From an uncultured Paracoccaceae bacterium (GTDB taxonomy: Bacteria; Pseudomonadota; Alphaproteobacteria; Rhodobacterales; Rhodobacteraceae): 64,000 bases of DNA. The stretch spans positions 1 to 64,000 of the forward strand of contig CANLEQ010000019.1 of assembly GCA_947489705.1 (NCBI GenBank). The letters run 5' to 3'. The position numbers and the translations under genes were made by a program. The notes under the pieces were generated by a model, which saw nothing but the letters and a program-made list of their open reading frames with translations, did not search any database and was not told the origin of the DNA. Below are positions 8,568-11,092 of the stretch, one piece after another; position 1 is the first letter of the stretch, and the number at the start of each line of letters is the position of its first letter.

Positions 8568-10151
8568 TCAACCGGCGTCCTTGTAGCTTACGGCTTTCGT
8601 GTCGCTGCCCGGTTCGGTGGTGCGCCGCTTCACGAGCAGCCGGTTCAGAGCCGAAATATAGGCCCTGGCACTTGCCACGACGGTGTCGGTATCGGCCGAT
8701 TGCCCGGTCACGATGCGGCCTGCTTCCTCGATCCGGACGGTGACGGTTGCCTGCGCGTCGGTGCCTTCGGTCACGGCGTGTACCTGATAAAGTTGCAGAC
8801 GCCCCTCATGGGGGACGAGGGCCTTGACGGCATTGAAGGCCGCGTCGACCGGGCCGTCGCCCTGCGCCGTGACCTGGCGATCCTGGCCGTCGATCCGCAG
8901 CGTCATGTCTGCCGATTGCGGTGCCTCCGTGCCGCAGATGACGCGGAGGAACTTGAGCTGCACGGCCTCTTCGGCGGCGCCCTGGGCCCGCACGAGCGCC
9001 TCGATATCCTCGTCGTAGACCTCTTTCTTGCGATCGGCGAGGTCCTTGAACCGGACGAAGACATCGGCAAGCTGATTGTCGGCGACCTCGAAGCCCAGCT
9101 CTTTGAGCTTGGACCGCAGCGCGGCGCGCCCCGAATGCTTGCCCATGACCAGCGAGGTCTCCTTCAGGCCCACATCAGCGGGGCGCATGATCTCGAAGGT
9201 CTCGGCATTCTTCAGCATACCGTCCTGGTGGATGCCCGATTCGTGCGCGAAGGCGTTCTTGCCGACGATCGCCTTGTTGAACTGAACCGGAAAGCCGCTG
9301 ATCGTCGCCACGCGGCGCGAGATATTCATCAACCGCGTCGAATCCACGCCCGTCGACCAGGGCATGATGTCGTGACGGACCTTGAGCGCCATCACGATCT
9401 CTTCGAGGGCCGTGTTGCCGGCACGTTCGCCAAGCCCGTTGATCGTGCATTCGATCTGCCGCGCGCCGCCTTCGACCGCAGCGAGGCTGTTGGCCGTCGC
9501 CATGCCCAGATCGTTGTGGCAATGCGTGGCGAAAATCACCTCGTCCCCGCCCTCCACCTCGGCGATCAGGCGCCGGATCAACTCGGCGGATTCGACCGGC
9601 GCGGTATATCCGACCGTGTCGGGAATGTTGATCGTCGTGGCACCCGCCTTGATCGCGATCTCGACTGTCCGCTTGAGAAAGTCCCACTCGGTCCGGGTCG
9701 CGTCCATCGGTGACCATTGCACATTGTCGCAGAGGTTGCGGGCATGGGTGACGGTCTCGTGGATGCGCTCGGCCATCTGGTCCATGTCGAGATTCGGGAT
9801 CGCGCGGTGCAGGGGCGAGGTGCCGATGAAGGTATGGATGCGCGGGCTTCTGGCCGGCTTCACCGCTTCCCAGGCGCGGTCGATATCCTTGATGTTGGCG
9901 CGGCTGAGGCCGCAGATCGTCGCGTTCTTCGTGATCTCGGCGATCGCATTGACGGCTGCGAAATCACCCTCGGATGCGATCGGGAATCCGGCCTCGATCA
10001 CATCGACGCCCATTTCGTCGAGCAATTCGGCGATCTCGAGCTTTTCGCGGTGGCTCATCGTAGCGCCGGGAGATTGCTCGCCGTCGCGCAAGGTCGTGTC
10101 GAAGATCAAGACGCGGCCGTCATCGGCCTTCTGCAAATCCTGATTGGTCAT
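8568..10151 (-). CDS. leuA: 2-isopropylmalate synthase
   Basis: A 527-aa enzyme that condenses acetyl-CoA with 2-oxoisovalerate, the committed step of leucine synthesis. The N-terminal TIM barrel opens with DTTLRDGEQSPGA at about residues 19–31, and the metal-binding HCHND motif follows near 205. The C-terminal third is the LeuA regulatory domain, which binds leucine for feedback inhibition. The ATG at 10151 has an AGGAAAG ribosome site about 12 nt upstream. It is preceded by a Leu-rich leader peptide and alternative hairpins (10189–10301), so expression is probably also tuned by attenuation. leu genes other than leuA are not in the window. Confidence 0.97.
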   Translation of the reverse strand: MTNQDLQKADDGRVLIFDTTLRDGEQSPGATMSHREKLEIAELLDEMGVDVIEAGFPIASEGDFAAVNAIAEITKNATICGLSRANIKDIDRAWEAVKPARSPRIHTFIGTSPLHRAIPNLDMDQMAERIHETVTHARNLCDNVQWSPMDATRTEWDFLKRTVEIAIKAGATTINIPDTVGYTAPVESAELIRRLIAEVEGGDEVIFATHCHNDLGMATANSLAAVEGGARQIECTINGLGERAGNTALEEIVMALKVRHDIMPWSTGVDSTRLMNISRRVATISGFPVQFNKAIVGKNAFAHESGIHQDGMLKNAETFEIMRPADVGLKETSLVMGKHSGRAALRSKLKELGFEVADNQLADVFVRFKDLADRKKEVYDEDIEALVRAQGAAEEAVQLKFLRVICGTEAPQSADMTLRIDGQDRQVTAQGDGPVDAAFNAVKALVPHEGRLQLYQVHAVTEGTDAQATVTVRIEEAGRIVTGQSADTDTVVASARAYISALNRLLVKRRTTEPGSDTKAVSYKDAG

Positions 10152-10188
10152 GGTGCGGGGTCTTTCCTGTCCGTTGCTTTCCTTCGAT

Positions 10189-10242
10189 CCTTCGGCGCTG
10201 GTCCACCCCTGAGCGGTCGCGCCGAGAAGGCACGCTCAGAGG
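10189..10242 (-). promoter_or_regulatory. Mutually exclusive hairpins of the leuA leader (attenuator)
   Basis: Read on the minus strand, CCTCTGAGCG (10242–10233, spanning the leader stop codon) pairs over 10 bp with CGCTCAGGGG (10215–10206). The loop of that hairpin contains CCTTCTCGGCGC (10230–10219), which can instead pair with GCGCCGAAGG (10198–10189) with a 2-nt bulge. The two folds cannot coexist as nested structures. A ribosome stalled on the Leu codons (10265–10248) would cover the first arm of the upstream hairpin. No U-tract follows, so whether the outcome is transcription termination, Rho access or occlusion of the leuA ribosome site is open. Confidence 0.6.
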
Positions 10243-10301
10243 CGCGTAAGGAGGAGAAGCAGCAGACCGCGCGGGTCATTATGGAGGATGCGCGTTTTCA
10301 T
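10236..10301 (-). CDS. leuL: leuA leader peptide with six consecutive leucines
   Basis: A 21-codon open frame, ATG at 10301 to TGA at 10236, encoding a peptide that contains six leucines in a row at residues 13–18 (CTG CTG CTT CTC CTC CTT) and two more at residues 6 and 21. It lies 84 nt upstream of leuA on the same strand and its stop codon sits in one arm of an alternative hairpin. Leader peptides rich in the regulated amino acid, followed by competing hairpins, are the hallmark of ribosome-mediated attenuation of amino-acid operons. The peptide itself is expected to be a sensor of charged tRNA-Leu, with no function as a product. Confidence 0.78.
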   Translation of the reverse strand: MKTRILHNDPRGLLLLLLTRL

Positions 10302-10343
10302 GGCCCCGACAATAGCCGCGATTCGGCAAATGAAAACCCCCGA

Positions 10344-10371
10344 TTGACGCAGCCGATCCGGCCGCTAGCTC
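10344..10371 (+). promoter_or_regulatory. Candidate promoter of the SDR gene, leaderless
   Basis: TTGACG (10344–10349), 16-nt spacer, TAGCTC (10366–10371). The predicted start of transcription, about 10378–10379, coincides with the ATG at 10379. No Shine-Dalgarno sequence is visible before that ATG. A leaderless transcript is the simplest reading, though the -10 box is only moderate. Confidence 0.45.
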
Positions 10372-10378
10372 GGTTGGC

Positions 10379-11092
10379 ATGGCAATGGAACATCGACAGG
10401 CGCTGGTGACCGGCGGCGCGAACGGGATCGGTCAGGGCATCGTGTCCCACCTTCTCAACCAGGGATGGAAGGTGGTCGCGCTGGACCGCGACCGGGAGGG
10501 CCTCGATCGACTCAAGGACAATCCGAAGCTGACGCGCATCGCCGCCGACGTGAGCGCCGAGGACGAGGTCCGCACGGCTTTGGGCGGGCTTAATGCGCTC
10601 GACCTTCTGGTGTGCAATGCGGGGATCGCGAGCCCGGTCAATGGCCCCATGGAGGAACTGGATCTCGACAATTGGAACGCGTGGCTGAGCACGAACCTCA
10701 CCGGGACGTTCCTCATGGCGAAGCATGCAATCCCGCTCCTGCGCAGATCGAAGGGTTGCATCGTCACGATGTCGTCGACGAGGGCCTTCATGTCCGAGCC
10801 GGAGACCGAGGCCTATGCCGCCACCAAGGGCGGGCTCGTCGCGCTGACCCATGCGATGGCGGTGTCGCTCGGCCCCGAGATCCGGGTGAACGGGATCGCG
10901 CCGGGATGGATCGTGACGGGCGACCCGGCCGCGTTGCGCCCCGAGGATCACGCACAACACCCCGCGGGCAGAGCGGGACGGCCGCAGGACGTGGCAGAGG
11001 CCGTCGGCTATCTCGCGGATGCGGGGTTCGTCACCGGGCAGATCCTGACCCTCGACGGCGGCATGACCCGCAAGATGATCTACGAAGAATGA
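10379..11092 (+). CDS. SDR family oxidoreductase
   Basis: A 237-aa classical short-chain dehydrogenase/reductase. It has the nucleotide-binding TGGANGIG at residues 11–18, the NAG motif (CNAGIAS), the Ser of the SS(T) strand, and the catalytic YAATK (Tyr-x3-Lys). The C-terminal IDGG-like signature reads LTLDGGMTRK. Substrate is unknown. An alternative ATG lies two codons downstream (10385). It starts a three-gene run with another SDR protein and a cryptochrome/photolyase gene; only 4 nt separate it from the next start. The gene diverges from the leuA leader. Confidence 0.86.
   Translation: MAMEHRQALVTGGANGIGQGIVSHLLNQGWKVVALDRDREGLDRLKDNPKLTRIAADVSAEDEVRTALGGLNALDLLVCNAGIASPVNGPMEELDLDNWNAWLSTNLTGTFLMAKHAIPLLRRSKGCIVTMSSTRAFMSEPETEAYAATKGGLVALTHAMAVSLGPEIRVNGIAPGWIVTGDPAALRPEDHAQHPAGRAGRPQDVAEAVGYLADAGFVTGQILTLDGGMTRKMIYEE

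Follow-up and report, generated by a model that had tools for sequence, protein, structure and literature searches.

A leucine-rich leader with a candidate pseudoknot precedes leuA in Alphaproteobacteria and probably acts as a translational attenuator

The product of leuA carries out the committed step of leucine synthesis. In attenuators of the trp, his and leu type, which include the leucine leader catalogued in Rfam (RF00512), a leader peptide rich in the amino acid of the pathway has its stop codon near a stem, and in translational attenuators of the erm type a ribosome stalled in the leader frees the ribosome site of the next gene. The closest described counterpart of the locus reported here is the LEU element of Actinobacteria, predicted upstream of leuA in 2005 (Seliverstov et al., PMC1262725). 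It combines a leader containing a run of Leu codons, a pseudoknot and a base stem in which the Leu codons pair with the Shine–Dalgarno box of leuA, and the description includes an alternative hairpin that shares the base stem. The background of the same article mentions mutations in the S. coelicolor leuA leader that had some effect, inconsistent with classical attenuation; the conclusion states that mutations of the Leu codons do not influence regulation, and prefers a protein regulator to ribosome stalling. Elsewhere, trpL of Sinorhizobium meliloti is described as a leaderless small ORF that forms part of a transcription attenuator, alongside an attenuator sRNA (PMC10117765), and cg4015 of Corynebacterium glutamicum, detected by RNA-seq, as an expressed frame that is presumed to be a leuA leader and has four Leu codons in a row (PMC4046766).

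Here we describe an element of similar layout in Alphaproteobacteria. The open-access literature matches listed held no account of an alphaproteobacterial form, and the available portions of PMC10117765, PMC4833913, PMC1273637, PMC4117421, PMC4046766 and PMC4633059 do not describe the element for Alphaproteobacteria. The locus lies in a 64,000-nt stretch of DNA from an uncultured Paracoccaceae bacterium, referred to as the window. An initial annotation had reported, 84 nt ahead of leuA, a 21-codon frame with six consecutive Leu codons and two more, ending inside one arm of a 10-bp hairpin whose loop holds the 5′ arm of a second helix. Re-reading the minus strand from 10301 to 10236 recovers this frame, with 84 nt between its stop and the leuA ATG, and all of the arms could be located. 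We call the 10-bp stem P1 and the second helix P2, and use P3 for a further pairing, between the last Leu codons of the leader and sequence at or just 5′ of the Shine–Dalgarno site of the next gene. The features, in the order in which they would be transcribed, are as follows.

10331–10336, minus strand: −35-like hexamer TTTTCA, read from the sequence, with a 16-nt spacer to the −10-like hexamer.
10309–10314, minus strand: −10-like hexamer TATTGT, 7 nt upstream of the leader ATG.
10236–10301, minus strand: leader ORF, translated as MKTRILHNDPRGLLLLLLTRL and stop; conserved, with synonymous variation and, family-wide, rare Leu codons.
10248–10265, minus strand: six-Leu codon run CTG CTG CTT CTC CTC CTT, read from the sequence.
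10253–10267, minus strand: P3 5′ arm GUCUG-c-UGCUU-c-UCC, from the end of a Gly codon into the fifth Leu codon; minimum-energy fold and duplex.
10233–10242, minus strand: P1 5′ arm CCUCUGAGCG, which includes the leader stop UGA; covariation.
10219–10225, minus strand: P2 5′ arm UCGGCGC, within the P1 loop; sequence and family evidence.
10206–10215, minus strand: P1 3′ arm CGCUCAGGGG; covariation.
10192–10198, minus strand: P2 3′ arm GCGCCGA, complement of the P2 5′ arm; sequence and family evidence.
10169–10182, minus strand: P3 3′ arm GGA-AAGCA-a-CGGAC, directly 5′ of the leuA Shine–Dalgarno-like sequence; fold, duplex, family-wide and within-clade tests.
10162–10168, minus strand: leuA Shine–Dalgarno-like sequence AGGAAAG, read from the sequence.
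8568–10151, minus strand: leuA, 2-isopropylmalate synthase (527 amino acids), the putative regulated gene; over the cut-off for NCBIfam leuA_bact (TIGR00973).

The single-sequence fold energy of the whole leader is ordinary (z −1.52), so the case rests on comparison with relatives. None of the Rfam 15 covariance models matched window positions 10100–10400, even at E ≤ 5, and the leader peptide had no NCBIfam match. The TTTTCA and TATTGT boxes were not picked up in a scan of the window for TTGACA/TATAAT. Elsewhere in the window, Rfam matches at gathering score mark a sul1 RNA (RF03058; 16060–16117, plus strand) and a glycine riboswitch (RF00504; 36400–36488, plus strand).

A leader with a Leu run lies 5′ of leuA in 14/14 genomes of the same genus. 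The family draw comprised 120 genomes, 119 with a leuA match and 118 with a usable leuA upstream (L170 was left out). In 108 of the 118, a leader and P1 stem lie within 290 nt of leuA, including three (L108, L145 and L182) in which the script placed the stem in the wrong register. In five more (L110, L126, L150, L179 and L181) the element precedes a cupin-like gene that is itself 5′ of leuA, and in two (L185 and L192) it lies beyond 290 nt upstream of leuA, with an open frame after it (72 codons in L185, 68 in L192). This brings the total to 115/118; the leuA-upstream stretch examined contained no element in L131, L186 and L202. Sequence comparison thus confirms the observed leader and stem as real and conserved, beyond chance.

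Among 80 named leuA loci, 70 gave a leader call, which was weak in L060, L069 and L073, and loci labelled Rhizobium, Bradyrhizobium, Afipia, Bosea and Kaistia are among those with a call. The ten without one are L008, L018, L032, L047, L046, L054, L061, L062, L064 and L081; L047 had no upstream sequence, and in L008, L018 and L032 the element was found before a cupin gene instead. These three and the five family loci named above, all Rhodobacterales, have a cupin-like gene between element and leuA; it is 118–124 amino acids long where measured and was named by sequence reading, without a family search.

For the region we trained an RNA model on family sequences, giving it the pairs of P1 alone; at E ≤ 0.01 it matched 21/192 genomes drawn from the class and 12/150 drawn from the phylum, with four genomes common to both; the phylum-draw matches all fall in the class of the window. 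leuA is present at every matched locus (21/21 and 12/12), with the leader correctly placed by the script in 17/21 class loci and 10/12 phylum loci. The 171 class genomes without a match at this setting may lack the element or have been missed. The genome of the window holds a single copy of the element by this search, the second match (E 0.14) being without leuA. On a 17.9-kb plasmid of Phaeobacter inhibens (NZ_CP081282.1; L238:740-992), leuA is accompanied by a leader and, by eye, P1/P2-like arms, so gene and switch can travel together.

The leader is apparently coding and translated. In 113 distinct family and genus sequences, Leu occupies codon −4 in 113/113, codon −6 in 107, codon −5 in 96 and codon −7 in 91. 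Codons −7 to −4 deviate from the commonest codon 236 times and retain Leu in 191 of these cases, whereas at the same positions the other two frames retain the residue in only 3/225 and 2/240. Rare Leu codons are enriched in the leaders family-wide: CTA makes up 13.2% of leader Leu codons versus 0.6% in 38 leuA genes, and CTT 35.4% versus 7.7%. CTC is also commoner in leaders (32.6 versus 24.6%), and CTG and TTG are less common.

The 5′ end of the frame is marked as well. A −10-like box with a score of at least 8 lies 5′ of 98/113 leader ATGs versus 6/327 other ATGs, the leader value being the best among in-frame ATGs (mean of 1.8 candidates per sequence). In a fairer control, the best other ATG of each sequence reaches this score in 5/101, and leaders with a single candidate reach it in 46/52. 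The commonest gap between box and ATG is 7 nt (55/113), and a TTTTCA-like box (at least 5 of 6) lies 15–19 nt from the −10 in 72/113 family sequences. Shine–Dalgarno-like sequence precedes 2/113 leaders versus 43/113 leuA starts with one motif set, and still 2/113 versus 80/113 with a wider one. Because the −10-like box lies 7 nt upstream of the leader ATG, the leader mRNA is predicted to be leaderless or nearly so, with its start at or next to the leader AUG. A leuA transcription start downstream of 10236, which the initial annotation had named as a difficulty for its proposal, is not indicated by the sequence, as the promoter-like boxes lie 5′ of the leader.

Across the 113 sequences, 93.8% of alignment cells in P1 pair and 7 of its 11 pairs have double-sided changes; 0/500 shuffles were as good on any measure. 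The outermost pair is weak (formed in 49/113). Two leaders have a variant stop, one TAG and one TAA (L201 and L209), with compensating changes in the P1 3′ arm, and these were counted for P1. Relatives therefore show both the conserved Leu codons and the covarying arms that had been anticipated for a genuine leader of this kind.

Helix tests left out L100, L108, L145, L182, L190 and L194 (displaced, or with P1 mis-called) and duplicates. The P2 3′ arm was sought within 30 nt after P1, which bounds the loop L3. In Rhodobacterales, P2 arms pair better with their own than with swapped partners (−17.07 versus −15.14; 0/20000 shuffles), and swaps within clades of similar LeuA gave 11, 0 and 0 of 10000. 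Outside Rhodobacterales P2 is weakly supported: the test was not significant for 18 sequences (4634/20000 shuffles), and for 33 sequences it gave 778/20000 when the arm was sought within 30 nt after P1 and 102/20000 when it was sought as far as leuA −15.

The loops enclosed by these arms are short: L1 has a median of 7 nt (range 3–18), L2 has 0–4 nt, and L3 has 3–12 nt in 112/113 and 20 in the remaining one. The order of the arms and the lengths of the loops are compatible with an H-type pseudoknot, in which P1 and P2 could form together without competing. The two folds had been described as mutually exclusive, a reading that we reject on these grounds. The accompanying remark that no U-tract follows the hairpins holds across the family, with TTTTT in 0/113 and TTTT in 5/113 between the stem and leuA; a scan of the window for intrinsic terminators likewise found none on the minus strand, and we reject such a terminator before leuA. 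Classical transcription attenuation of the trp type, in which mutually exclusive hairpins control an intrinsic terminator, would account for a leader with regulatory codons that ends in a stem, but neither the compatible helices nor the missing T-tracts suit it, and we give it next to no credence. Of the ribosome-mediated attenuator put forward in the initial annotation, the conserved and apparently translated Leu-rich leader stands and the competing hairpins of the trp type fall.

Right after the P1 5′ arm, the tetranucleotide UGCC (window 10232–10229, alignment columns 31–34) is at least 90% conserved and mostly unpaired in the model. Its conservation exceeds what the pseudoknot alone needs and is left unexplained by the model that we favour. 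It would suit an element bound by a protein or ligand, the kind of control that the 2005 authors put forward for the actinobacterial LEU element, with a regulator on the pseudoknot and an incidental leader ORF; so would the lack of influence of the S. coelicolor Leu-codon mutations on regulation, as given in PMC1262725. That result stands against a stalling reading unless the mutants also altered P3. A bound regulator would leave unexplained the frame-specific synonymous change, the enrichment of rare Leu codons and the promoter-like box at the leader AUG. The protein proposed is said in PMC1262725 to be absent outside Actinobacteria, yet the layout occurs in Alphaproteobacteria. We consider regulation of this kind distinctly unlikely.

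P3 is new relative to the initial annotation and would offer the output missing from it. Examples among relatives are UCCUUAGCC with GGCUAAGGA, UCUUGGCU with AGCCAAGA, CUAAGCU with AGCUUAG and UGCUUCUG with CAGAAGCA. In Rhodobacterales, own partners again outdo swapped ones (−11.85 versus −9.54; 0/20000 shuffles, z −12.4). Two controls are also off chance, though less so than P3 or P2: one with earlier leader codons (89/20000, z −2.7) and one pairing the Leu run with the P2 region (3/20000). With swaps confined to clades of similar LeuA and a slightly wider P3 window, P3 stood at 36/10000 (56 rows), 0 (74 rows) and 0 (76 rows), and the earlier-leader control was flat (2517, 2074 and 2285 of 10000).

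Outside Rhodobacterales, RNAduplex on 18 sequences gave no significant P3 (2231/20000), with 226/20000 for the control of Leu run against P2 arm; one Rhodobacterales control in this comparison was spoilt by a short row. A set of 33 sequences, scored for contiguous helices in a narrower ribosome-site window, gave 4/20000 (control, 4992). The 33-sequence tests exclude the weak calls L060, L069 and L073 as well as L075, which is labelled Rhodobacteraceae; they differ from the 18-sequence tests in set and definition, and are second looks rather than independent confirmations. Covariation of CTT and CTA (31:0 versus 0:13; 28:0 versus 1:10 in the tree set, with one exception) was rejected as significant support, as it comes to about three changes on the tree and independent pairs cannot reach significance.

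A contiguous P3 helix of at least 6 bp is present in 86/113 family sequences. The window is among the 27 without one: its P3 is interrupted, adjoining AGGAAAG; no contiguous run exceeds 5 bp, and the longest is located elsewhere. Its P3 5′ arm has its own partner among the best 5–9% of partners.

Thirteen of the 86 family helices overlap the Shine–Dalgarno site, 58 end 0–12 nt 5′ of it and 15 lie elsewhere; outside Rhodobacterales, 15/25 such helices overlap it. Among leuA-first Rhodobacterales with a good helix, P3 thus mostly lies 5′ of the Shine–Dalgarno sequence; elsewhere it is more often over it. The 58 helices that leave the site free would agree with reinitiation, or hand-over, whereby P3 brings the leader stop beside the leuA ribosome site, a finishing ribosome restarts on leuA and control is exerted through the rate of leader translation. 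The 15 overlapping helices of other Alphaproteobacteria instead fit occlusion, and so do the cupin-first operons. There, P3 fits the ribosome site of the cupin gene better than that of leuA in 6/6 scored (L018, in which the cupin gene starts with GTG, was left out), although narrowly in L110 (−16.5 versus −13.9), and it ends 4–8 nt before the cupin ATG, covering an AGGA- or GGAG-like sequence. Reinitiation would also yield expression induced by leucine and not by starvation, and we hold it to be very unlikely. An output at the leuA ribosome site, one of the possibilities raised at the outset, is backed by both the P3 swap tests and the cupin-first operons.

We also modelled the opening of the leuA ribosome site, representing the ribosome footprint as a 30-nt unpaired stretch, folding from the last 60 nt of the leader onward and leaving out the pseudoknot. 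With a footprint at the first Leu codon of the run, leuA −30 to +5 costs less to open in 94/113 sequences (median change, −2.69 kcal/mol), and with one placed 30 nt earlier it does so in 62/113 (median, −0.04); opening of −16 to +5 is eased in 78/113 versus 56/113. A footprint at the leader stop has nearly the same effect (93/113), so discrimination would have to come from dwell time. In the window, masking barely alters the cost for −30 to +5 (7.78 to 7.36 kcal/mol) and raises that for −16 to +5 (3.13 to 5.28). The masking model supports the class and not the window singly, for which it is neutral to adverse.

The position of P3 at the cupin site in cupin-first operons, the coding signal of the leader, the complementarity in P1–P3 and the lack of a U-tract lead us to favour translational attenuation. 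The element is probably a translational attenuator of the LEU-element type, in which ribosomes stalled at Leu codons would free the leuA ribosome site. Transcription would begin at or next to the leader AUG, as the promoter-like boxes suggest, and a ribosome would translate the Leu-rich leader. When leucine is plentiful, the ribosome would finish quickly and depart; on the vacated leader P1 and P2 would fold into the H-type pseudoknot, and P3 would pair the run of Leu codons with sequence around the ribosome site of the next gene, making initiation on leuA less frequent. Under a shortage of Leu-tRNA, the ribosome would stay on the Leu codons and cover the P3 5′ arm but not P1 and P2, keeping the leuA ribosome site accessible and allowing LeuA synthesis. 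In this scheme the Leu codons themselves are the likely switch strand. From the sequence comparisons we infer the leaderless start, the co-formation of P1 and P2, the stalling, the direction of control and an output at the level of translation.

Rho attenuation could follow from this model, since Rho polarity would act on an untranslated leuA. As an explanation in its own right, Rho-dependent attenuation would have the leader ribosome released when leucine is plentiful, leuA left untranslated and transcription stopped by Rho in the 84-nt gap or early leuA, which stalling would prevent. It agrees with the fact that no intrinsic terminator was seen, but leaves unexplained the match of P3 to the ribosome site of the first gene and the loop lengths of P1 and P2; we consider it unlikely.

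With the element in 115/118 family upstreams, findings in one strain would bear on a large group. A simple mutation of the Leu codons may alter codon identity and P3 together.

Set against known systems, the locus shares with the RF00512 leucine leader and with trp-, his- and leu-type attenuators a leader rich in the amino acid of the pathway and a stop near a stem; those systems have a terminator–antiterminator pair and a U-tract, neither of which is seen here, and there is no Rfam match. As in erm-type attenuators, a stalled leader ribosome is proposed to free a ribosome site, but the signal would be amino-acid supply, the sensor codons would themselves form the anti-ribosome-site strand, and a pseudoknot would lie between. 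S. meliloti trpL, as described in PMC10117765, is likewise an alphaproteobacterial amino-acid leader, but no terminator is seen in the leuA element. C. glutamicum cg4015 differs in belonging to Actinobacteria, and the available portions of PMC4046766 describe no test of its mechanism.

A match in Nonomuraea gerenzanensis was rejected as an actinobacterial leuA: it is an acyltransferase-like gene of another kind, which has an Ile/Leu leader and a T-rich terminator. At that locus (L237:1351-1450) a hairpin and then a T-rich tract come after the short frame MFYGLLIIGRRAG, 5′ of the LeuA/CimA-like gene, and the arrangement looks like a classical Ile/Leu attenuator.

The sole actinobacterial example examined is the leuA of the Tsukamurella tyrosinosolvens plasmid NZ_LR134459.1 (L239:453-626). 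It has the leader MTYRGHLLLLPRHGGA, a P1 of 11 bp, a P2 of 8 bp, loops L1/L2/L3 of 11/1/9 nt and a P3 of 6 bp (UCCUUC with GAAGGA) that ends 6 nt before the ATG. In this one actinobacterial sequence the helix order is that of the window element and the helix sequences differ; the leader stop lies within the P1 5′ arm in the window element and within the P1 loop in the plasmid. A TAGGGT box stands 7 nt before the plasmid leader ATG, which suggests that this leader is also leaderless.

The LEU element, as PMC1262725 describes it, resembles the present one in its place upstream of leuA, its Leu-run leader, for Rhodobacterales its two-helix pseudoknot, and family-wide the stem between Leu run and ribosome site; its base stem lies on the Shine–Dalgarno box, whereas P3 of the family lies over the box in only 13/86. 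The two elements also come from different phyla, one from Actinobacteria and the other from Alphaproteobacteria. The actinobacterial leuA presumably belongs to a subfamily other than the leuA_bact (TIGR00973) of the window. A LEU-type layout outside Actinobacteria argues against a protein regulator confined to that group and reopens the mechanism of the LEU element. We are evenly divided on the wider reading, that this is an uncatalogued alphaproteobacterial leucine sensor, near-universal in the family, in which the Leu codons of a leaderless leader would form the anti-ribosome-site strand under an H-type pseudoknot and the pairing would follow the first gene of the operon; the same machine would stand before another type of leuA in Actinobacteria, through two origins or a transfer between phyla, and the sensor in both groups would be the ribosome rather than a dedicated protein.
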